This document shows, piece by piece, positions 52,165-64,000 of a DNA stretch of 64,000 nucleotides. This stretch comes from Streptomonospora alba (GTDB lineage: Bacteria > Actinomycetota > Actinomycetes > Streptosporangiales > Streptosporangiaceae). The position numbers and the translations under genes were made by a program. Each line of letters starts with the position of its first letter. Position 1 is the first letter of the stretch. The DNA lies in NCBI RefSeq assembly GCF_000826685.1, contig NZ_JROO01000029.1:62001-126000 (forward strand), given 5' to 3'. The notes under the pieces were generated by a model. It worked only from the letters and a program-made list of their open reading frames with translations, was not told the DNA's origin and did not search any database.

Positions 52165-53300
52165 CTAGTGTGCTGCGCCTGAAATCCGTTTCATTTCGGA
52201 GATGGCGAAGACGGGGCGGCCGAAGAAGGCCGAGTTGACGGTGACCGAGGCCGACCGCCGGGAACTGGTGCGCGGAGCGCGGGCGGCGACCTCGACCCAG
52301 GCCTACGCGCTGCGCTGCCGGATCGTCCTGGCATGCGCGGAGCCCGGCGCGTTCAACAAGGACGTGGCCGCCGAGTTGGGGATCTCCGTGCCGACCGTGG
52401 CCAAGTGGCGGGGCCGGTTCATCGAGCACGGCCCGGCCGGGCCGGCCGATGAGCCCCGGCCGGGCCGGCCGCCCTCGATCCTGCTCGACCAGGTGCAGCA
52501 GGTCGTAGAACTGACCTTGGAGCAGACCCCGCCCGATGCCACCCACTGGTCGCGGGCCTCGATGGCGCGGCGCAGCGGGCTGAGCCGCTCGACCATCGGG
52601 CGGATCTGGCGCCATTTCGACCTGAGGCCGCACCGCAGCGAGGGCTTCAAGATCTCCACCGACCCGCTGTTCGTGGAGAAGGTGGTCGACGTGGTCGGGC
52701 TGTATCACCATCCGCCCGAGCGGGCGGTGGTGCTGTGTGTGGACGAGAAGTCGCAGATGCAGGCGCTGGACCGCTCCCAGCCGGTGACGGGCGATGATGC
52801 CGGGCGCCCCCGAACGGGCCACCCGCGACTACGTCCGCCACGGCACCACCAGCCTGTTCGCCGCGTTCACCATCGCCGACGGCACCGTCATCACCGAGTT
52901 GCACCGCCGCCACCGCGCGGCCGAGTTCAAGAAGTTCCTCACCAGCATCGACACGGCGGTCCCGGCCGAGTTGGACATCCACCTGGTCTGCGACAACTAC
53001 GCCACGCACAAGACCCCGACGGTGCAGCGGTGGCTGGCCCGCCGCCCCCGCTTCCATGTGCACTTCACCCCGACCGGCTCCTCCTGGCTCAACCAGGTCG
53101 AGCGCTGGTTCGCCTATCTCACCGCCCAGCTCACCCGCCGCGGCGTGCACACGAGCGTGGCCGCGCTGGAGAAGGACGTGCGCGAGTGGATCGGGCACTG
53201 GAGCACCGCGCCTCGCCCGTTCGTCTGGCGCAAGACCGCCGAGGAGATCCTCGACTCCCTCGCCCGATATCTACAACGGATTTCAGGCGCAGAACACTAG
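52165..53300 (+). mobile_element. IS630-family insertion sequence with 26-bp terminal repeats
   Basis: Left end CTAGTGTGCTGCGCCTGAAA plus TCCGTT (52165-52190) and right end (53275-53300) are inverted repeats with one mismatch. Both outermost bases read CTAG, consistent with IS630 insertion at a TA dinucleotide duplicated on integration. The element fills the gap between an IS3 fragment and the 3' end of the Old Yellow Enzyme gene. Confidence 0.85.
52202..53300 (+). CDS. IS630 transposase, frameshifted near 52,795
   Basis: The first frame (52,202-~52,795) encodes the N-terminal helix-turn-helix (NKDVAAELGISVPTVAKWRG) and the first catalytic Asp in VLCVDEKSQMQALDRSQPV. The second frame from ~52,794 gives MMPGAPERATRDYVRHGTTS, VCDNYATHKTP with the second Asp and SSWLNQVERWFAYLT with the Glu, ending at 53,300. 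In related elements DRSQPV and LPMMPG are continuous, so a 1-nt indel separates the frames. It could be programmed frameshifting but is more likely inactivation. The stop TAG lies in the terminal repeat. Confidence 0.8.
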
Positions 53301-54412
53301 GCGGAGCCGGTCACCGCGGGGTAGTCCGTGTATCCCTCCGCGCCACCCGCGAAGTGCGTGTCGCGGTTGTCGGCGGCGAGGGGGTGGCCGTTGGTGAATC
53401 GGTCGACGAGGTCTGGATTGGCGATGAAGGGGGCGCCGAAGGAGACCGCGTCGGCCAGTTGCCGTTCGAGGATCTCGTTGCCGCTCGCTTGTGTGAAGCC
53501 GAGGTTGGCGATGACGGCGCCGTGGTAGTGGGCGCGGTAGCGGGTGAATGCGGTGAGGGTGTCGTCAGTTCCCGTGTCGGGTTCCGGGCCGAGGAGGTGG
53601 AGGTAGGCCAGGTTGCTGTCGTTGAGGCGCTTGAGGAGCTGGTCGTACTCGTCCAGCGTCTCGGCGTCCGCTGTGAAGGCAGGCCCGTGATTCCAGTAGG
53701 GCGAGAGTTTGATTCCGATGCGGTCGCTGCCCCATACGCTGCTGACGGCGTCCACGACGTCGAAGAGGAACTGGGCCCGCTTCTCACTGCTGCCGCCGTA
53801 GGCGTCGGTGCGCTGGTTGAGCCGTGGGTTGAGGAACTGGGCCACGAGGTGGGACACCTGCGCGTGGATCTCCAGACCGTCGAATCCGGCGCGCAGGGCG
53901 TTGGCGGCTGCCTGCCGGTAGGTGCTGATCGTGGTGGCGATCTCTGCGGCGCTCAGGGCACGTGGGGTGAGGGAGTCCTTCGGGCCGTCGGGAGTGAAGG
54001 ACATCTCGTGGGGATTGATTGCTGAAGGGCCGGCGGGGAGCCTGCCGCCGTGGTGATCCGGGTGGGAGGCGGCGCCGACGTGACCGAGTTGCGAGACGAT
54101 CCTGCCTCCCACGGAGTGCACGGCTTCGGTGACCTTGGTCCAGCCGGCGGTCTGGGCGTCGGTGTAGATGCCTGGGACGTTGATGAAGCCGATCGCGTCC
54201 GTGCTCACCCAGGTCCCTTCGCTGATGATCAAGCCGGCGCCAGCGCGCTGCGTGTAGTAGGTGGCGTGCAGGGCGGTGGGGGCCAGTTCCTCGTTGCTGG
54301 CCCGAGCGCGTGTCATGGGAGCCATGACGACGCGGTTGGGCAGCTTGAGCGCGCCCAGCTGAACGGGCTGCAGGAGGGGCTGGGTGCTGGGTGCTGAGGT
54401 CTGGTGGGACAT
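53297..54412 (-). CDS. Old Yellow Enzyme family alkene reductase
   Basis: 371 aa from ATG 54412 (AAGGAG six nt upstream). FMN-binding TIM barrel: LPNRVVMAPMTRARA near 33, GLIISEGTWVS near 69, SQLGHVGAASHP near 114, FDGLEIHAQVSHLVAQFLNP near 188 where the usual His-x-x-Asn pair reads HAQVSH, and LDEYDQLL near 262. It reduces activated C=C bonds of enones, quinones or nitroesters with NADPH. The catalytic-pair change (HAQ for HGAN) is notable. The TAG stop is formed by the IS630 end and target TA. First downstream neighbour is an NADP-binding reductase on the same strand. Confidence 0.9.
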   Translation of the reverse strand: MSHQTSAPSTQPLLQPVQLGALKLPNRVVMAPMTRARASNEELAPTALHATYYTQRAGAGLIISEGTWVSTDAIGFINVPGIYTDAQTAGWTKVTEAVHSVGGRIVSQLGHVGAASHPDHHGGRLPAGPSAINPHEMSFTPDGPKDSLTPRALSAAEIATTISTYRQAAANALRAGFDGLEIHAQVSHLVAQFLNPRLNQRTDAYGGSSEKRAQFLFDVVDAVSSVWGSDRIGIKLSPYWNHGPAFTADAETLDEYDQLLKRLNDSNLAYLHLLGPEPDTGTDDTLTAFTRYRAHYHGAVIANLGFTQASGNEILERQLADAVSFGAPFIANPDLVDRFTNGHPLAADNRDTHFAGGAEGYTDYPAVTGSA

Positions 54413-54477
54413 GCGGATCTCCTTCGTGGCGGAAGTCACTCCTCGTGGGCTTGAGGAGCACGAGCGGGTTGGTGGGA

Positions 54478-55080
54478 TCAGTCCTGCTTGAGGGCGTGGA
54501 GGGCGGACAGGGGGCCGCCGAGCTGGATGAGGCGTCCTCCCTCTCGCAGCGTTCCGAGGTCGACGGGAGCGAAGCCGAACTGGGAAGTCAGGTCTCTCAC
54601 GGTGTTCTTGGCATCGGCGTCGTCGCCGGCGAGGAACAGCACCTGCCGCCCCGCCTCGTGGCGGGGATCGGGTGCGATGAACTGCGCGTAGAGGGAGTTG
54701 AACGCCTTGACCACGCGCGCTCCGGGAAGCAGGGAGGACACGTATTCGCTCCCGGTGAGGTCGCCCAGATCGGCGATCGCCGGGTGCGGGGAAAGGGAGG
54801 CGAACTGGTTGGTGGCGTCGATGACGACGGTCTTGTCCAGGCGGGGGAGCCCGGCGACGGCGTCAGGAATCCGCGGCCAGGGGACCGCGAGCACGACGAG
54901 GTCCGCGGCGGCGGCCTCCGCGGGGGTCGCGGCTGCCGCGAGCGCGCCGAGATCCTCGACCAGCGGGGCCAGGGAGGCCGGCCCCCGGCTGTTGCTGAAC
55001 ACGACCTCGTGGCCGTGACGGATCGCGTGCCGGGCGATGGCCTGGGCTATCGCTCCGGCTCCGAGTGTTCCGATCTTCAT
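54478..55080 (-). CDS. F420- or NADP-dependent reductase (Rossmann, pyrroline-carboxylate-reductase-like fold)
   Basis: 200 aa. Starts MKIGTLGAGAIAQAIARHAI, a GxGxxA dinucleotide site, then VVFSNSRGP (2'-phosphate recognition), VVLAVPWPRI, VIDATNQF and RVVKAFNSLYA. The family (NADPH:F420 oxidoreductase-like) acts on small redox cofactors or dehydrogenated substrates in the cytoplasm. Its ATG overlaps the stop of the medium-chain oxidoreductase gene (55,077-55,080), and the Old Yellow Enzyme gene follows 65 nt later, so the three form one operon. Confidence 0.85.
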   Translation of the reverse strand: MKIGTLGAGAIAQAIARHAIRHGHEVVFSNSRGPASLAPLVEDLGALAAAATPAEAAAADLVVLAVPWPRIPDAVAGLPRLDKTVVIDATNQFASLSPHPAIADLGDLTGSEYVSSLLPGARVVKAFNSLYAQFIAPDPRHEAGRQVLFLAGDDADAKNTVRDLTSQFGFAPVDLGTLREGGRLIQLGGPLSALHALKQD

Positions 55081-56108
55081 CGGGCGGCCCCGTTTCCGGA
55101 GCCGGCCGTCCGCGGTGTGGTGAGCAGGACGGTTCCGCTCTTGGCCGGGCGGCGGGCGTGCTCGACGGCCGCCTTGAAGTCGGCGAGGTCGTAGCTGGCC
55201 GCGGCTTCGAGCAGGTCCGGCGTGTTCTGCGCCAGGTCCTGGGCGAAGGCGACGTCCTGGGCCCGCTCCCCGGGGGTGCGGCTCATCCAGCGCAGTATCG
55301 ACATTCCCCGCACCGTCAGCGCCCGCGCTATGAGGGGCAGCGCCTCCAAAGATGTCGTGCCGGAACCCAGCTGCCCGTAGGAGATCAAGGTGCCGCCGTC
55401 GGCGAGCAGTTCGGCAAGGTCCTGGGTCATGGCACCGCCGACACAGTCGAGGACCACCTGGACACCCCGCTCACCGGCGTGCAGGCGGACTTGTTCCCGC
55501 CAGTCGTCGTCGCACGTCGCGATCACGGGCTGGGAAGGGTACGACCTCCGCACCTTCTCGGCACCGGAGGTGCTGCGCACGAGGTTGATCAACTGCAGGT
55601 CGTGCCGGATTGCAGCCGCGCTGACCAGCCTGCCGACGGACGAGCTGGCGGCGGTCTGGAGGACGGGACCCGCCTGACCGCGCAGGGCTTCCTCCACCGC
55701 GCGGTACAGCATGCGCAGCGTCAGCGGGTTGACCAGCATCAGGGCTGCGGTCTCGTCGCTGACTCCGTCCGGCACCGGCACTGCCAGATCGGCCGGGACC
55801 ACGACGAAGTCGCTCCATGTTCCCGGCACCGGGAAAACCGCCACCCGCTGCCCCAGGCGCGGTGCGCGGACGTCTGCTCCGACGCTCTCGACGACGCCCA
55901 TCCCCTCCACTCCGGGAGTCCGGGCACCCGACTGCTGTTCCGGCTGCCCCGGCAGACCCTCCACACCGATCAGGTCCCCCGGATGGACGGGCCGGACCAG
56001 CATGCGAACCAGAACCTCTCCGCTGCCGGGAGCCAGCCAGCGGGTCTCCTCGCTCAGCGCGAGTACCTGTGTGGCATCCCCTTGCCGCGTGTACTCCACG
56101 GTGCGCAT
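55077..56108 (-). CDS. medium-chain quinone/enoyl oxidoreductase
   Basis: 343 aa from ATG 56108 (GGAGGTG five nt upstream). GroES-like N-terminal domain with VRPVHPGDLIGVEG near 38-52, then Rossmann domain with QTAASSSVGRLVSAAAIRHD near 150 and VQVVLDCVGGAMTQDLAELL near 222. No zinc-binding cysteine cluster, as in zeta-crystallin-type quinone reductases and mitochondrial enoyl reductases (MECR). First gene of a three-gene redox operon. Divergent from a TetR gene with a clear palindromic operator. Confidence 0.85.
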   Translation of the reverse strand: MRTVEYTRQGDATQVLALSEETRWLAPGSGEVLVRMLVRPVHPGDLIGVEGLPGQPEQQSGARTPGVEGMGVVESVGADVRAPRLGQRVAVFPVPGTWSDFVVVPADLAVPVPDGVSDETAALMLVNPLTLRMLYRAVEEALRGQAGPVLQTAASSSVGRLVSAAAIRHDLQLINLVRSTSGAEKVRRSYPSQPVIATCDDDWREQVRLHAGERGVQVVLDCVGGAMTQDLAELLADGGTLISYGQLGSGTTSLEALPLIARALTVRGMSILRWMSRTPGERAQDVAFAQDLAQNTPDLLEAAASYDLADFKAAVEHARRPAKSGTVLLTTPRTAGSGNGAAR

Positions 56109-57084: not shown

Positions 57085-57705
57085 TCATGCCTCTGGCGAC
57101 TCCGGGCTGCAGACCTGCACGCGCAGACTGCGGTCCATGGCGGCGAAGGCGCGCTGCACACACCGGGGCAGGTCGCCGGGGGCGCCTTCGGGCAGCCACT
57201 CCTCCAGCGCGCCGCGCCAGGTGGTCACCGAGAACTCGACGAGCAGTCGCGCCTCAAGGCTGTCCGGGGCACCGATCCGGCGCCTGATCTCGGCCTGGAT
57301 CTCGGCGCAGTGCCGCAGGGAGTGCCCGTTCAGCGCGGGCGAGCGCTCGATCAGTTCCAGGGTGGCGGAGAAGCGCGGATACCACTCCTCGTCCATGCGG
57401 TCGAGGGTGGCCAGAACCGCGTCGCGCAGGATGTCGGCCAGCCGTCCGGACTTCTCCGTCTCGTCGAGGACCGGCAGGAAGGTGCTCCAGAACCACTTGA
57501 CAGCTGTGAACGCCACATCCTCCTTGGAGCGGTAATAGCGGAAGAAGGTCCGCCGCGATACCTCGACCTCCTCCAGGAGCGTGTCGAGCGGCGTGTTGTC
57601 GAAGCCGTGCTCGCTGAACAGCGCGAGGGCGGTTTCGGCCAGGGCCTGGCGGGTGCGTAGCTTCCTGCGTTCGCGAAGCGAGGAGGGCGGGTCGGCGGTC
57701 GTCAT
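57085..57705 (-). CDS. TetR-family transcriptional regulator
   Basis: 206 aa from ATG 57705. Helix-turn-helix [20 protein letters not shown] then [12 protein letters not shown] (about 38-69), typical of TetR/AcrR. C-terminal ligand domain helical with no obvious motif. Divergent from a medium-chain oxidoreductase gene with a short GCCACA-C-TGTGGC palindrome between them. In-frame upstream ATGs are possible but unlikely because they would run through the promoter. Confidence 0.85.
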
Positions 57706-57760
57706 CCACTCCAGCGTAGCGGAGATGCCCCTGCGGAGCTTATGCTTCATTGGAGCAAAT

Positions 57761-57773
57761 GCCACACTGTGGC
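57761..57773. promoter_or_regulatory. GCCACA-C-TGTGGC operator candidate
   Basis: Perfect 6-bp arms around one base, 56 bp upstream of the TetR ATG and 27 bp upstream of the oxidoreductase GTG. Confidence 0.5.
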
Positions 57774-57799
57774 GCTTTCCGTCTAAGGAGGAGGCTTCC

Positions 57800-58732
57800 G
57801 TGCAGGCACTCGTGGTGGACCACAGCGCGTCGGCGCATCTTGCGCTGGCCGAGGTGCCCGACCCGGCGCCCGCGCCGGACGAGGCGCTGGTGCGGGTAGA
57901 GGCGGTCTCGCTGAATTACGGCGAGGTCAAGGGTGCCACCGATCCGCAGACGCCCGAGGGCACAGTGCTCGGCTGGGATGCGGCAGGGGTGGTGGTCAAG
58001 GCCGCGGGCGACGGCTCGGGGCCGCCCGAGGGGACCCGTGTCGTCACCCTGGGCGAGACCGGCTGGGCGGAACTGCGCGCGGTGCCGACCACTCTGCTCG
58101 GTGGGGTGCCCGAGGGCTCGGACCCGGGCGTCGCCAGCACCGTTCCGGTCGCCAGCTTGAGCGCGTTGCACGTATTGCGCCGCATGGGCCCGCTGCTCGG
58201 CCGGCGCGTCATGGTCACCGGCGCCTCCGGTGGAGTCGGTCGCTACGCGGTGCAGCTTGCCGCCCGAGCGGGTGCGGAAGTGGTGGCGACCAGCCGGAAT
58301 CCCACCCAGGCGGATGGTCTGCGGGCGCTGGGAGCACACGAGGTCTACTCCGAACCGGCCGCCGTGCTGCGGCCCGTAGCCGCGGCGCTGGACAACGTCG
58401 GAGGTCAGCAGCTGGTGGACACCTTCGCCGCATTGGACGCCGGCGGAACGGTGGTGAGCGTGGGCCGCTCGTCCGAAGCCGAGGCCGTCTTCGCGCCCGA
58501 GGCCCTGCTGGGCAATGAGGGACGGCACGACAGGTCCATCCGTACGTTCTTCCTGTTCTCCGACCCGGCCGCGGACTTCTCCGCCGACCTGACCTGGCTG
58601 TCCGCCGAGGTCGCCGCGGGCCGCCTCGACCCGGGGATCAGTTGGCGCGGTTCGTGGACCCGTTGTGAGGAGGCGGTACAGGCGCTGCTCGGCCGTCGCC
58701 TGCACGGCAAGGCGGTGCTGGACATCGACTGA
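57800..58732 (+). CDS. medium-chain NADPH:quinone oxidoreductase
   Basis: 310 aa from GTG 57800 (AAGGAGGAGG upstream). GroES-like domain with [15 protein letters not shown] near 33-47, Rossmann site [20 protein letters not shown] near 140 and [15 protein letters not shown] near 218. No structural zinc cysteines. It should reduce quinones or alpha,beta-unsaturated carbonyls with NADPH. Controlled in all likelihood by the divergent TetR. Followed by debris of a short-chain dehydrogenase and ISAs1. Confidence 0.9.
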
Positions 58733-58816
58733 CCCGATGCTGGGCGTCACCGCAGTCGACCAGTGGAAGTGCCCGGTGGGCCGTGATCCCGCCTCTCGAT
58801 AGGATCGCCCCACCGA

Positions 58817-58963
58817 TACTTCGCCCGCGAAGGCGCCCGGGTCCTGCCCGCGGCTGGGACCCAGGACCGGCTCAAGGCGGTGACCGAGGAGATCCGGGCC
58901 GCGGGCGGCACCGCCGACTACGCTACGTGGCGCGCAGCCTGGGCGACGCCGACAGCGTGCGCG
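58817..58963 (+). pseudogene. short-chain dehydrogenase N-terminal fragment
   Basis: Frame 1 FAREGARVLPAAGTQDRLKA then VTEEIRAAGGTADYA, continued after a shift by SLGDADSVRAA. This is the beta2-alpha3 part of an SDR Rossmann fold. The GxxxGxG start and catalytic part are lost, and the sequence runs straight into an ISAs1 transposase piece. Confidence 0.6.
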
Positions 58964-59202
58964 CCGCCGACTACCTGCTGACCGTCAAGGCCAACCAGCC
59001 CACACTGTTCGCCCGGGTCAAAGCGTTGCCGTGGGCCGCAGGCACCGGTGTTGGAGGCCACCCGCGAGCGCACGCACGGGAGAACGGAGGTGCGCACCGC
59101 CTCCACGGGCCGGGTGGGACGCAGCTATGCCTACCTGGTCACGAGCCCGCTGGCTGAGCGCCTCACGGACGGGGAGTTGGCGCACCTGGCGCGCGGGCAC
59201 TA
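58964..59202 (+). mobile_element. ISAs1-family transposase fragment
   Basis: DYLLTVKANQPTLFARVKAL then, after a shift, VLEATRERTHGRTEVRT and a stop-terminated tail. YLLxxKxNQPxLF is diagnostic for ISAs1 transposases. Fragmentary and fused to SDR debris on its left. Confidence 0.65.
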
Positions 59203-59310
59203 AGAACTCCTAACGAAATGATCTCCGAGGTGAATGGATCGCTCCAGGACCGGTGATCCGGAGGTGCGGGCTGCCCGCGGCCGCAGCCGTGGGCAGCCCC
59301 GAACGGTGGG
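59203..59310 (+). mobile_element. IS5-family terminus, left inverted copy
   Basis: AGAACTCCTAACGAAATGAT and the following ~46 bp match, with several mismatches, the reverse complement of 61,563-61,629 at the start of the IS5 transposase. After about 59,280 similarity to the transposase start fades. It borders the 3' end of the oxidoreductase gene at 59,317. Confidence 0.7.
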
Positions 59311-59316
59311 ACAAGC

Positions 59317-60222
59317 TCAGATACAGACCACGATCTTCCCCCGCGTGTGTCCCCGCTCGGCGTATGCGTGCGCTTCCGCGATCCGTTCGAGCGGGTAGGT
59401 CCGCTCGATGCGCGGTGTGTAGCGGGCTTGCCGGCCGAGTTCGCCCGCTTCGGCGAGGAGCGTGGAGTCGTTCTCCGCGTTGGCCAAATGCACACCCAGG
59501 CGATGCGCGTTGGCGTAGTCGGCGATCGTCGACACGCGGACAGGGTCGCCCACGATCGCAATGAGATCGGCCAGAGACCCGGAGGCCGCAGTGTCGAGGG
59601 CGATGTCGACACCGTCCGGAGCCAGGGCGGCGAGGCGTTCCGCGAGGCCAGTGCCGTAGGTGGTGGGAACGGCTCCGAGAGAGGTAAGAAACTCGTGATT
59701 GCGCTCGCTGGCCGTCCCGATCACGGTGGCGCCCTGAGCCACCGCGATCTCGACCGCAGCACTGCCCACTCCTCCGGCGGCGCCCTCGATGAGCAGAGTG
59801 CGCCCCCGCAGGGGCCCGAGCGCCTTCAGCCCGCCCATAGCGGTCACGGATCCCAGACCGGCGCCGGCGGCCTCCTCGTCGGTCCACGTGGTGGGCGCGT
59901 GGGCCCAGGCCGAGAGCACGGCCAGCTCCGCCGTCGCGCCGGTGACGCCGCCCAGCCCGAAGACACGGTCGCCGATGCTCACGCCCTGCACGCCCTCACC
60001 GGTCTCGTCGACCACGCCGACGGCATCACGCCCAGGAATCGCGGGCAGGTCCACGGGGAGCACCTCGTGCACCGCACCGGAACGCACCTTCCAGTCGACG
60101 GGATTGACGCCGGCCGCCGCAACGCGGATGCGGACCTCGCCGGCCCCGGGATGCGGGTCCGACACCTGCTCGACCATGAGAGTCTCTACACCGCCGTACT
60201 CGTGATAACGGACTGCGCGCAT
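59317..60222 (-). CDS. medium-chain NADP-dependent oxidoreductase
   Basis: 301 aa from ATG 60222. N-terminal MRAVRYHEYGGVETLMVEQV and VNPVDWKVRSGAVHE near 45, Rossmann IEGAAGGVGSAAVEIAVAQG near 149, ALDTAASGSLADLI near 208. Zeta-crystallin/quinone-oxidoreductase type without zinc ligands. Divergent from a MerR regulator across a perfect 20-bp dyad. Both lie between inverted IS5-type ends (59,203 and 61,629), so the pair may have moved as a cassette. Confidence 0.9.
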   Translation of the reverse strand: MRAVRYHEYGGVETLMVEQVSDPHPGAGEVRIRVAAAGVNPVDWKVRSGAVHEVLPVDLPAIPGRDAVGVVDETGEGVQGVSIGDRVFGLGGVTGATAELAVLSAWAHAPTTWTDEEAAGAGLGSVTAMGGLKALGPLRGRTLLIEGAAGGVGSAAVEIAVAQGATVIGTASERNHEFLTSLGAVPTTYGTGLAERLAALAPDGVDIALDTAASGSLADLIAIVGDPVRVSTIADYANAHRLGVHLANAENDSTLLAEAGELGRQARYTPRIERTYPLERIAEAHAYAERGHTRGKIVVCI

Positions 60223-60313
60223 GACGTTCTGCCTTTCCAACACGGCCTGCACCGGCCGTTCGTGAGATCAGTGGGGTGAATGTTCGGCGAGTGCCGACGC
60301 CCGCTACGCTAGA

Positions 60314-60333
60314 ACCTGACGTTGACGTCAGGT
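60314..60333. promoter_or_regulatory. MerR-type operator ACCTGACGT-TG-ACGTCAGGT
   Basis: Perfect 9-bp arms around 2 nt. On the minus strand it lies between TTGCAC and CTAGCG with 19-bp spacing, the over-long spacer typical of MerR-activated promoters, reading toward the oxidoreductase gene. Confidence 0.75.
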
Positions 60334-60368
60334 GCAAGTCGGGCGGGCCGCCCGACAGAGGAGGACCG

Positions 60369-60740
60369 GTGCGCATCGGTGAGGTCGCCGAAAAGGCGGG
60401 AGTGAGCGTCCGGGCGCTGCGCTATTACGAGGAACAGGGTCTGCTCCAGGCGGGCCGCAGTCCCGGCGGCCAGCGGCATTACCCCGACACTGCCGTCGGC
60501 CGAGTCCGGCTGATCCAACAGCTGTATGCCGCGGGCCTCCCGAGCAGAGTGGTCCGCAAGGTGCTGCCGTGCGTGGACTCGGGTGAAGTAAAAGCGCCCC
60601 CGGCACTCCTGGACCAGATGGCGGCCGAGCGTGTCCGCGTCGACCAGCGGATCACCGACCTGCTCGCTGTGCGCGACCGGCTCGACGACGTGATCGCCGT
60701 CGCGCGGGACCCTGATTCCGACTGCTCTCACGTGGAGTGA
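60369..60740 (+). CDS. MerR-family regulator of adjacent oxidoreductase
   Basis: 123 aa from GTG 60369 (AGAGGAGG upstream). Winged helix: IGEVAEKAGVSVRALRYYEE, QGLLQAGRSPGGQRHY; then a dimerisation helix and short C-terminus with two cysteines (PCVDSG and DSDCSHVE) that could sense electrophiles or oxidants. Resembles the small MerR proteins paired with alcohol dehydrogenase/quinone reductases (AdhR/NmlR group). The stop is 4 nt before sequence of the IS5 transposase stop on the other strand. Confidence 0.9.
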   Translation: MRIGEVAEKAGVSVRALRYYEEQGLLQAGRSPGGQRHYPDTAVGRVRLIQQLYAAGLPSRVVRKVLPCVDSGEVKAPPALLDQMAAERVRVDQRITDLLAVRDRLDDVIAVARDPDSDCSHVE

Positions 60741-60743
60741 AGG

Positions 60744-61629
60744 CTACTGCCGCAATGACTTCAGACGTCGCCAGCAGATGAGTGCGCATCCGAGGGTGAG
60801 GAAGGCTTCGTGGATGTCGTCGCGTATCTCCCAGCGGATGCGCAGGCGGCGAACCAGTGCAGGTGCGCGAACGCGCGCTCGACGACCCAGCGTTGGGTGC
60901 CGAGGCCGGAGCCGTGCTCGGTGCCGCGGCGGGCGATCAGCGGTTTCACGCCGAGGTCCCAGACCAGGCAGCGGTACTTGTCGTGGTCATAACCGCGGTC
61001 GGCCAGCACAGCGTCCGGGCGGCGTCGGGGCCGGCCGCGCTTGCCCCGCACCGGCGGCACGGCTTGAAGGAGTGGGATCAGTTGGGTGACGTCGTTACGG
61101 TTGCCGCCGGTCAGGGTGGCGGCGAGCGGGATGCCGGTGGTGTCAGTGATCGAATGGTGCTTGCTGCCGGTTCTGCCCCGGTCGACAGGGCTTCGTCCGG
61201 TCTTGGCTCCCCCTTTAACGCCCGGATGCGCGAGCCGTCGACGGCCGCCCGGGAGAAGTCCAGGGCATTCGCGCGGCACAGCTCGGCCAGCAAGACCTCG
61301 TGGAACCGGGGCCACACCCCGGCCTCGGTCCACTCGGCCAGGCGGCGCCAGCAGGTCCTACCCGAGCCGAAGCCGAGTTCCTGCGGCAGATGTTCCCAGG
61401 CGATCCCGGTGTGCAGCACGAACAAGATGCCCTGGAACACCAGCTGGTCCGGACGCCGCTTGCGTCCCGGATGCCGAAGCCGACGCTCCACCTTGGGCAG
61501 CAGCGGCCCGAGCACCGCCCACAGCTCGTCATCGACTTCCCACGGTTTCGGCCGCGCCACCCCGCACCCCTCGGATCATCAGTCCTGGAGTGATCCAACC
61601 ACCTCGAAGATCATTTCGTTAGGAGTTCT
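60744..61629 (-). mobile_element. IS5-family (IS427-like) element, one end missing
   Basis: The transposase spans two main frames on the minus strand: orfA from about 61,560 (PWEVDDELWAVLGPLLPKVE, WEHLPQELGFGSGRTCWRRL) and orfB (SITDTTGIPLAATLTGGNRN, LADRGYDHDKYRCLVWDLG, ARRGTEHGSGLGTQRWVVER). They join at AAAGGGGG near 61,215, a plausible slippage site. A further 1-nt deletion near 60,855 displaces the last 40 residues (RLRIRWEIRDDIHEAFLTLG). The right terminal repeat is at 61,563-61,629. No terminal repeat is seen beside 60,744. Confidence 0.8.
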
Positions 61630-61697
61630 AAGCCTTTGCCACATTGGTGTTCGGGCTGCTCGGAGGGTGTACGGCGTGGCGTGGCCACGAACAAGTG

Positions 61698-61860
61698 GTC
61701 GGGTAGCCGGGAGGACCCCTCCCGGCCCCCACAGATCCCGGCGTGACGGTCTCCCGTCGCCGGGCTCCTCTCGATCTCACCATCAGAACTCGGGAACCCA
61801 CCGCCAGTGCGCGAAGAACCGCGCATGCCGACGAACCGCCCGCCTCCACGCCGCGTGCGC
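61698..61860 (-). mobile_element. group II intron 3' end with maturase tail
   Basis: Minus-strand maturase end ARFFAHWRWVPEF-stop, then domain V of 34 nt (61,734-61,767): GAGCCCGGCG, ACGG, loop GAGA, CCGT, CACGCCGGGATC; domain VI GCCGGGAGG/CCTCCCGGC with bulged A seven nt from the terminal AC at 61,698. Domain VI is nearly identical to that at 57,005-57,044, so the two relics came from closely related introns. Confidence 0.7.
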
Positions 61861-62250
61861 CTTCTGAAGGTCCTCAACCGCATGCGGCTGGGCACGGGCT
61901 TCGACCCCGTCACCGGCAAGGTACCGGTGCCCACCGAACGCACTGTCGCCGAACTTCTTCTGCCGACCTCGACCCCCAACATCCTCGCGGCGGCCGGAGC
62001 CGCTCACGCCGAAGCGATCGCCGCCCACACCAGTCCCGCCCCCCGGCGAGCCCGACAACGTGCCCCGAACGCGAGCACCGCCGCCGACGCAGCTCTCCAG
62101 CGACCCTGCCGCGCCAGGCGCCCGGAGCGGTAGCGGTGTGCGAGCCGCGTAGGGCTTTGCCGTCGACGAACAGCACGGCAGCCTGCTCGGCGGCGCTGAG
62201 CCGGCTGAGTACGGCCGGGTCCTGTTGCGCCCGGGTCCTGTGCAGGCTCT
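61861..62250. mobile_element. rearranged ISAs1 remnants
   Basis: The plus strand near 61,885-61,960 reads LGTGFDPVTGKVPVPTERTV, which resembles the N-terminal linker of ISAs1 transposases. The minus strand near 62,135-62,225 reads RLSAAEQAAVLFVDGKALRG, the first-Asp region (VDGKALRGS). The two pieces are in opposite orientation, suggesting an inversion inside a dead copy. Confidence 0.4.
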
Positions 62251-62272
62251 GATCCCAGGAAGGATACAGAGC

Positions 62273-62450
62273 ATGGCAGCACCGATGAAGTACAGCGACG
62301 AGTTGCGTGAACGCGCCACGCGCATGGCGTTGGAAGCGATCGCGGCCGAGGGCCAGAGGATGGGGCCGATCCGCCGCATCGCAGACCATCTGGTGTTCAT
62401 TCGGACGGTTGCCCACCCGGTTGCAGGTTGCCGAGGCAACTTTGATGAAT
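62273..62450 (+). mobile_element. IS3-family orfA N-terminal fragment
   Basis: MAAPMKYSDELRERATRMAL, EAIAAEGQRMGPIRRIADHL is the helix-turn-helix start of an IS3 orfA. The recognition helix is then lost by frameshift and the frame stops at 62,452. Confidence 0.65.
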
Positions 62451-62503
62451 AGGGCACCGGCGACGGAAATTCCGCTGGGGAAAGGGTTATACCTGTGCCA
62501 TAG

Positions 62504-63229
62504 CTATGTCAGCGCTGTCAGGTCGAAGGTGCCCGGAGGGCCCGAGAGGCTTGCCTTCGCTTCGACTCCGAAACGGTCAAGGATCTCGACCTCTCCTGCC
62601 TCGATTCCGTCCAGGGCTAGTCGAACGAGGTAGTCCGGTTCGATCATCGGGTCCTCAGGGAGAGAAATTCCGGAATCCTTCATGGCTTCTTTCAAGGTTT
62701 CGCTGGCCACGAGCCCCGGGACGAAAGCAGCCACTAGAGTTCCCTGGTCAGCCAACTCCACCCGCACCCCGTTAGTGAGTCCCCACTGTGCGGATTTGGC
62801 GGCGGCGAGGGCGGTGTTGCTCTCGACGGTAGTCCAAGCCACTGCTGACAGGACGTTGAGGATAGCGCCGCCACCATTGCTGGCCAGCACGGGGGCAAAC
62901 GCCCGGATCATGGCAAGTGTGCCGAAGTAGTGCGATTCCATCAGCTGCCGGACTACATTGAGGTCTCCGCTGACGAGGCTACCGATGCCCATGTAGGCGC
63001 CGTTGTTGATCAGCAGGTCGACGTCGGTGGCGACCTCGGCGGCGGCTTCGATGGACGTCTGGTCGGTGATGTCGACATGGAGCACTTCGGCACCAGGGAT
63101 ATCGACAAGTTCCGGGCGGCGAGCCGTGGCATAGACCTTCGCCCCGCGGCGCAGGAGTTCGATGGCGAAGTGGCGGCCCATCCCGCTATTGGTGCCGGTG
63201 ACGAGGGCTGTGGATCCTTGTAGCTGCAT
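62504..63229 (-). CDS. SDR-family protein lacking the catalytic tyrosine
   Basis: 241 aa from ATG 63229. NAD(P) site TGTNSGMG (11-18), then HVDITDQTS near 51 and LLINNGAY near 72. Ser128 of the catalytic set is present (ILNVLSAVAW), and Lys145 too, but the position four before Lys, normally Tyr, is Leu141 (NTALAAAK). Classical dehydrogenase chemistry should therefore be impaired. It may act as a redox or ligand sensor, use another residue, or be decaying. The frame is otherwise intact. Divergent from a TetR gene with two identical operators between. Confidence 0.8.
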   Translation of the reverse strand: MQLQGSTALVTGTNSGMGRHFAIELLRRGAKVYATARRPELVDIPGAEVLHVDITDQTSIEAAAEVATDVDLLINNGAYMGIGSLVSGDLNVVRQLMESHYFGTLAMIRAFAPVLASNGGGAILNVLSAVAWTTVESNTALAAAKSAQWGLTNGVRVELADQGTLVAAFVPGLVASETLKEAMKDSGISLPEDPMIEPDYLVRLALDGIEAGEVEILDRFGVEAKASLSGPPGTFDLTALT

Positions 63230-63278
63230 AAGTTCCTTATCCGACCTGGACTTGCGGGCTGCCCTGCGAGACAGATAA

Positions 63279-63332
63279 TGACCCATCGGTCATCTTAAGT
63301 CGACAGTGGATCACAAGATGACCGACTGGTCA
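63279..63332. promoter_or_regulatory. paired TGACC-N4-GGTCA operators
   Basis: TGACC-CATC-GGTCA at 63279-63292 and TGACC-GACT-GGTCA at 63319-63332, forty bp apart (about four helical turns), between the divergent SDR and TetR genes. One overlaps each likely promoter, giving joint repression. Confidence 0.75.
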
Positions 63333-63351
63333 ACTTGTTAGGATGGTGCGC

Positions 63352-64000
63352 ATGACGCTGCCTGCCCGTTCGCTGCGCTCAGACGCGGCGCGAAACCGAG
63401 AACTGCTCCTCGCTGCGGCAGAGGAGGAGTTCAGCAAGCGGGGCATGGACGCCTCGATCGCGGATGTCGCTCGCCGTGCGGGCGTGGCGAAGGGGACCGT
63501 CTTTCGACACTTCGCCACGAAGGAGGAACTGGTCGCCGTGGTCGTAGGCGGTCATTTCGACTCGCTCAGCGCCGTCGCGGGGGAGTTGCTGGAATCCGCT
63601 GATCCTACGGGTGCGCTGCTGGAGTTCCTGGCTGTGGCGGCAGAACAGTTGCAGCACCAGGATCTTGTGTTCTTGCGGGCGGCCACGGAAGGAGATCCAA
63701 AAGTGACCGAGTGTCGGAATCAGCTGCATGTGAGGACCAATGCGTTGGTCGAACGCGCCCAGGAAGCCGGTGGAATCCGATCTGACGTCACTGGGCCCGA
63801 TATCCTTATGATCCTCTGCGCTCTCGTTCACACCGTCGGGCTCCAGGCGGGACAATCGGCAGATTCATTGCAGCGTCACCTCATCATCCTCTTCGACGGA
63901 CTGCGGCCCCAGGGTGCTTCTCCATTGCCGGGTCCAGGTAACTATTCAGCCGGTGGCGGGTCACGGGCAGCGCAAAGTCGGTTGACGACGGGGACGCACC
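63352..64000 (+). CDS. TetR-family transcriptional regulator (3' end beyond window)
   Basis: Open from ATG 63352 (or 63343 in frame) through the window edge, 216 codons without a stop. Helix-turn-helix ASIADVARRAGVAKGTVFRH then FATKEELVAVVV near residues 38-70. The C-terminal part has the SdpR/TetR_C helices and RAATEGDPKVTECR. The last ~30 residues seen are Gly/Ser-rich, so the natural stop may be close beyond the edge. Divergent from the atypical SDR gene. Confidence 0.85.
   Translation, partial: MTLPARSLRSDAARNRELLLAAAEEEFSKRGMDASIADVARRAGVAKGTVFRHFATKEELVAVVVGGHFDSLSAVAGELLESADPTGALLEFLAVAAEQLQHQDLVFLRAATEGDPKVTECRNQLHVRTNALVERAQEAGGIRSDVTGPDILMILCALVHTVGLQAGQSADSLQRHLIILFDGLRPQGASPLPGPGNYSAGGGSRAAQSRLTTGTH

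Follow-up and report, generated by a model that had tools for sequence, protein, structure and literature searches.

A probable passenger-carrying IS5-family element with a MerR-regulated oxidoreductase in Streptomonospora alba

Results

Inverted ends and layout of the unit

We analysed a window of 64,000 nucleotides from Streptomonospora alba (contig NZ_JROO01000029.1, positions 62,001 to 126,000) and found one transposable unit of about 2.4 kb at 59,204-61,628. It consists, in this order, of an IS left end, an oxidoreductase gene, a divergent merR gene, an IS5-family transposase and a second IS left end. Judged from sequence comparison, the unit is very probably a passenger-carrying IS5-family element similar to the transporter ISs, with the MerR-regulated oxidoreductase as fixed cargo. 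The first-pass annotation had read this layout either as a transposable cassette that carries passengers or as a pair of opposed ISs of which one had been deleted. The former was borne out by recurrence of the unit with both ends, by one empty site and by matching flanks in three of four complete copies. The latter appears to be the most likely origin, although the cassette is the present form of the unit.

The inverted arms were found at 59,200-59,260 and 61,572-61,632 (61 nt, 89% complementary, separated by 2,311 nt). Among the inverted pairs listed for 58,000-64,000 the runner-up measured 31 nt at 71%. The pair had been correctly placed in the first-pass annotation, but the homology is longer than the approximately 66 bp given there: with gaps, 97 bp aligned at 85% (59,200-59,296 against 61,536-61,632), reaching the first transposase codons. 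Both outer termini of the unit match the left end of the IS and do not form a left/right pair. The left terminus is a 93-bp stub of the IS left end (59,204-59,296, plus strand, beginning GAACTCCTAACGAAATGATC), and the right terminus (61,536-61,628, minus strand) was identified by the same sequence comparison as an IS left end inverted with respect to it. TAA precedes the left end (59,201-59,203, plus strand) and the same TAA follows the right end (61,629-61,631, plus strand); this candidate target duplication was read from the sequence and from the flanks of other copies. The oxidoreductase, the MerR regulator and the IS5-family transposase were all identified between the arms, as annotated.

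The IS copy and its transposase

The IS copy occupies 60,751-61,628 on the minus strand, as defined by open reading frames, profile matches and comparison with a complete copy. The latter was found on a Streptomyces plasmid (locus L034, NZ_CP109461, 1,491-2,378); it is 888 bp long, runs from GAACTCC to GGAGTTC and has TTA on both sides. The window copy has an intact left end at 61,628, and its right side now adjoins the end of merR. Here it stops inside the right inverted repeat: CGCAATGACTTC is retained and GAACTCCTAA is lost, so that the outer 10 bp are gone, in agreement with the missing inner terminus of the first-pass annotation. As the internal right end has no tip, only the outer pair of left ends would be able to act. 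The junction between the merR end and the tipless IS right end (60,741-60,758, no strand assigned), which recurs in other genomes, also provides the transposase stop.

The window transposase is split into two overlapping frames. Frame A lies at 61,560-61,111 on the minus strand, and frame B, probably entered by a -1 shift, terminates at 60,761: a single base is deleted after 60,851, which throws roughly the final 30 codons out of frame. Comparison of the frames in the window and in genome G067 fits a -1 shift. Joined in this way near GTTAAAGGGGG, the G067 frames gave a 272-aa transposase scoring 229.5 bits against the IS5-family profile NF033580 (cut-off 110). The two window frames scored 91.9 and 94.4 singly, below the cut-off. 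Among the four complete copies, that of G067 is the sole one whose transposase is unbroken. We found no second IS match in the window's genome (110-contig assembly; 40 of 337 candidates scored). Given the one-base deletion and the lack of another listed IS copy in the genome, the window unit is probably now immobile. Neither was a source IS for the left stub found among plasmids, where nothing exceeded 85% over most of the stub; the best piece was one 35-bp stretch at 91%.

Passenger genes and their putative promoter

The first passenger (59,317-60,222, minus strand) encodes an oxidoreductase of 301 aa, identified from its open reading frame and its ADH_N and ADH_zinc_N_2 domain matches. Profile matches place it with the zinc-type alcohol dehydrogenase/quinone oxidoreductase-like, NADP-dependent enzymes. 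The second (60,369-60,740, plus strand) encodes a MerR-family regulator of 123 aa, identified from its open reading frame and family matches. Both proteins fell below the cut-offs of specific NCBIfam models.

Promoters of the MerR type hold a dyad within a long spacer of 19-20 bp. Between the two genes we found the dyad ACCTGACGTTGACGTCAGGT (60,314-60,333), overlapped by putative promoter elements TTGCAC and TAGCGT with a 20-bp spacer. The putative MerR-type promoter of the oxidoreductase (60,306-60,337, minus strand) was read from the sequence and from conservation of the dyad, which an alignment by eye showed in most of 34 copies. Neither promoters nor terminators were returned by standard scans of 59,150-61,700. 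The dyad is also largely kept in several copies that have no MerR (e.g. L040, L044, L060 and L195), where another regulator may act on it. In the host, the MerR protein probably responds to an electrophile or to redox stress by inducing the oxidoreductase. Family resemblance would give the cargo a role in quinone or reactive-enal reduction under a SoxR-like MerR switch.

Recurrence at other loci

The first-pass annotation had suggested a search for the 2.43-kb unit at other loci. The unit was found with both ends in three other genomes, G067, Nocardiopsis xinjiangensis and Streptomyces himastatinicus. G067 carries the equivalent of 59,200-61,632 at 96.9%, with both ends. N. xinjiangensis (NZ_ANBE01000012) carries 59,279-61,629 at 96.6% together with the oxidoreductase-side end, which is only about 20 bp long and has an N just inside it. 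In S. himastatinicus (NZ_GG657754) the match was in two pieces, at 91.3% and 93.9%. The junction between the merR gene and the tipless IS is identical in all three, and it is recognisable in remnants from Streptomyces shenzhenensis (L046), Micromonospora (L048), G294 (L148) and Nocardiopsis alborubida (L150), which argues that the junction is ancestral.

The oxidoreductase-side IS end was recognisable at 14 of the loci collected. Its distance to the oxidoreductase stop was 113-118 bp in 11 of them and 59, 78 and 123 bp in the other three. Ends were sought by a pattern allowing at most five differences, so more eroded ones, such as that of L197, were missed. All-against-all comparison of 1.4-kb flanks, on the left side only, covered these 14 loci together with L197 and L148, which have no recognisable end (n=16), and only L041 and L193 were alike.

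A second Streptomonospora genome, G004, carries the oxidoreductase-MerR pair at 98% identity with one IS end, a different left flank (GAA instead of TNA) and no transposase; its sequence passes straight from ...CTGCCGCA to CTGAGCC. Because the junction is ancestral, G004 is best read as a deletion of the transposase. We had considered it as an empty site for the right-hand IS, which would make the enclosure fortuitous, and dropped this once complete units sharing that internal junction were found in other genomes. On the right, G004 and the window have the start of another IS in common (91% over 68 bp). The two may accordingly go back to a single insertion whose left side was later rearranged. 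The common right-flank IS points either to such a shared insertion or to a preference of the unit for that IS end.

Target flanks and an empty site

Matching 3-bp flanks were found in three of the four complete copies: TAA/TAA in the window and in N. xinjiangensis, and TTA/TTA in S. himastatinicus. The G067 flanks, TAA/TTA, differ, so candidate target duplications, which the first-pass annotation had proposed to look for, were present in most but not all complete copies.

The N. xinjiangensis unit interrupts the final codons of a methyltransferase gene and lies between ...GGCCGTAA and TAAGCCCTGA.... With a single TAA the gene is restored, reading to ...GVGRKP and then a stop, and its product matches Methyltransf_19 over profile positions 4 to 267 of 268. 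In the occupied gene the end of the element gives the stop (L147, 4,460-4,480), with K-N-S-stop replacing K-P-stop, so that only the last residue is affected. Two of 40 Nocardiopsis genomes, a set that includes N. xinjiangensis itself, were uninterrupted across the junction, with gap-free matches at 86% over 331 and 316 bp. Weaker junction matches in other genomes (66-78%) were paralogue-like and were left out of this count. TAA on both sides and an uninterrupted gene in relatives argue that the N. xinjiangensis unit arrived whole, with a 3-bp duplication.

Empty sites, also proposed in the first-pass annotation, were therefore obtained cleanly for the N. xinjiangensis copy but not for the other three. 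For S. himastatinicus none was found among 248 genomes, in which matches ended before the junction or were one-sided, and for G067 the 41 genomes searched yielded nothing beyond G067 and a chance match of 22 bp. Nor was a pre-insertion site found for the window unit, whose flanks hold a weak ISAs1-like remnant on the left and the start of another IS on the right. The oxidoreductase-MerR pair was not seen at the window's locus without IS ends; G004, with its single IS end, came closest to this.

Neighbourhood of the unit

A weak ISAs1-like transposase remnant (58,940-59,200; 16.6 bits, cut-off 70) adjoins the left end of the unit. The right end is adjoined by approximately the first 65 bp of another IS, which starts GCCTTTGCC (61,628-61,695). 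Pieces of this IS flank the unit on both sides in G004 (L036, 7,205-7,450 and 9,022-9,285); further copies occur in G000 and G004, and copies with both ends lie elsewhere in G004.

Redox genes were seen around the unit. To its left are an FMN oxidoreductase of the 'old yellow enzyme' type (53,297-54,439), an F420-type NADP oxidoreductase (54,478-55,080) and two zinc-type dehydrogenases. One of these (approximately 55,077-56,100, assigned without a family scan) lies beside a TetR-type regulator, and the other (57,581-58,732) beside a TetR gene at 57,085-57,765. A short-chain dehydrogenase (62,504-63,286) lies on the other side of the unit. A short open frame at 62,225-62,452 reads KYSDELRERATRMALEA... 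and resembles the start of an IS3-type OrfA; family scans gave it no support.

Distribution and decay of the copies

Related loci were collected with conserved peptide patterns, from which the best 80 of 149 were taken and which may favour intact enzymes, and with DNA-similarity searches of the family, of Streptomyces and of the class, from each of which at most 30 loci were taken. Occurrence was patchy: matches were found in 26 of 341 genomes of the family (E <= 1e-60), in 51 of 392 Streptomyces genomes (E <= 1e-200) and in 11 of 394 genomes of the class, from 3 of 137 genera (E <= 1e-200). These counts refer to the gene pair or parts of it, with IS ends present or absent.

Compared with the window, oxidoreductase DNA was 98.3% identical in G004, 97.9% in G067, 97.4% in N. 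xinjiangensis and 94.7% in both G294 and S. himastatinicus. The corresponding values for a 1,251-bp piece of rpoB were 96.6, 89.2, 86.6, 85.0 and 83.1%. Such values indicate that the unit was transferred between genera.

We built a tree of 79 oxidoreductases of full length and at least 80% identity (the IS-ended loci L209 and L117 therefore lie outside it), with identical copies collapsed before counting. The window, G004, G067, N. xinjiangensis and S. himastatinicus formed a clade (98/92; bootstrap unsettled). These five, the nearest of the IS-ended copies, are nested in a star-like group of 50 rows in which Thermomonosporaceae, Micromonosporaceae, Pseudonocardiaceae and Mycobacteriaceae are represented too. 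The group takes in every one of the 12 IS-ended rows of the tree; in its other 38 rows no end was recognisable. The remaining 29 rows of the tree, most of them from Streptomyces, form a separate group without IS ends. Placed on the tree, the IS label required seven changes, a number as low as which was reached in none of 500 shuffles; repeated loss of the end would give such a pattern.

A full-length open oxidoreductase was present in 34 of 37 distinct loci whose oxidoreductase DNA was at least 88% identical. A near full-length MerR match remained in 14 of the 37 (at L057 and L144 contig ends beside the gene made MerR unscorable) and both transposase halves in four, only one of which, G067, could be read through with a single -1 shift. 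Oxidoreductase dN/dS against the window was 0.14-0.34 in 32 comparisons. Selection on the enzyme would best explain the preferential survival of the oxidoreductase, with the reservation that the peptide-pattern search may favour intact enzymes.

Discussion

The comparisons indicate that the unit moved as one piece, with its ends and its duplication. We propose that a -1 shift would join the two overlapping frames into one transposase acting on a pair of IS left ends in inverted orientation, and that insertion at T-N-A would duplicate 3 bp, or 2 bp should the final A belong to the element. The unit would have begun as two diverged, opposed IS copies flanking the oxidoreductase-MerR pair. One copy would have shrunk to the 93-bp stub and the other would have lost its inner end, so that only the outer pair of ends was still mobile and the cargo became locked in. 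Between the left end of the window unit and the right ends of the remaining complete copies, identity was 84.5-86.5%, and the reverse comparison gave 84.6-86.7% (N. xinjiangensis in one direction only), which suggests two different founding IS copies. We infer the use of two left ends and an origin as a composite transposon.

It might be argued that the right-hand IS landed separately and later next to an ordinary gene pair, with the left stub as an unrelated relic, and the G004 pair without transposase does resemble an empty site. A chance enclosure of this kind is very improbable, given that the truncated IS-MerR junction and both ends occur together at other sites in three other genomes and that one whole unit has an empty site. 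We also hold it most unlikely that the window shows an ordinary composite transposon of two complete opposed ISs, one of them since decayed. The opposed left ends do differ by about 15%, as separate IS copies would, yet the one-sided stub and the same lost right tip are found in 4/4 complete copies, which argues that the collapse preceded the spread, and no copy with two full ISs was seen.

A third possibility is spread of the pair by plasmids or by recombination of larger segments, with the IS as a fellow traveller. Transfer between families needs a vector anyway, and one Streptomyces plasmid carries a related pair (76.5%) that has no annotated IS genes next to it. The one site that is empty in relatives speaks against this as the sole mechanism; in addition, the left flanks are dissimilar as far as the IS end itself, and none of 72,556 plasmid records held 80% of the unit in one place. 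We consider it very improbable as the full explanation. Plasmids or larger segments are possible carriers of the unit between cells, with movement as a passenger-carrying IS element being the reading that we prefer.

Transporter ISs (tIS) are described, in the passages of PMC9330008 and PMC3129680 that deal with them, as IS derivatives with passenger genes. Like these, the unit has one transposase and passengers without a transposition function inside one inverted end pair (here the oxidoreductase and MerR), and it moves as a whole, as its recurrence with both ends and its one empty site indicate. It differs from them in its two left ends, in the fossil right end inside and in its probable composite-transposon origin. 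A tIS is expected to have the normal left/right end pair of its parent IS. Since the unit has a left end on either side and has lost the right tip of the IS, we say that it works like a tIS. With composite transposons, as outlined in part of PMC9330008, it shares two opposed IS-derived ends around passengers. Composite transposons have two ISs, each with most or all of its transposase, whereas here one IS is a 93-bp stub with no transposase and the other has no inner end.

The transposase is of the DDE type typical of the IS5 family (NF033580). In its two overlapping frames and in the length of the free copy (888 bp, compared with 832-865 bp) the IS resembles the IS427 group as characterised in the relevant section of PMC3281130, which gives the target duplication of the group as nearly always 2 bp. 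The unit is unlike that group in carrying passengers and may be so in its flanks, which match over 3 bp (TAA or TTA) in three of four copies, or over 2 bp with the final A assigned to the element. Oxidoreductase-MerR pairs with no IS end recognised in their rows also exist, mostly in Streptomyces and at 78-82% identity; they resemble the unit in the homologous oxidoreductase and, often, in a divergent MerR and a similar dyad. A full-text literature search found no description of the unit, the comparison having been made outside the IS collection ISfinder. On this sequence evidence the architecture of the unit is unusual, and its movement is well supported.

A broader scenario is that the unit with two left ends seeded the MerR-controlled oxidoreductase across several actinomycete families, and that hosts repeatedly kept the enzyme, and often the operator, while the regulator, the transposase and the ends eroded, making many seemingly chromosomal copies of the star-like group domesticated cargo. 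We regard this as evenly balanced; with 38 of the 50 rows lacking a recognisable end, descent of the whole group from the unit stays hypothetical.

The unit provides a case of an IS spreading a regulated redox gene, and not drug resistance, among environmental actinomycetes. Besides one empty site, it offers a range of decayed copies, which show the part of the unit that hosts keep. Its fossil right end suggests a way in which the collapse of a composite transposon can yield a unit with locked-in cargo.
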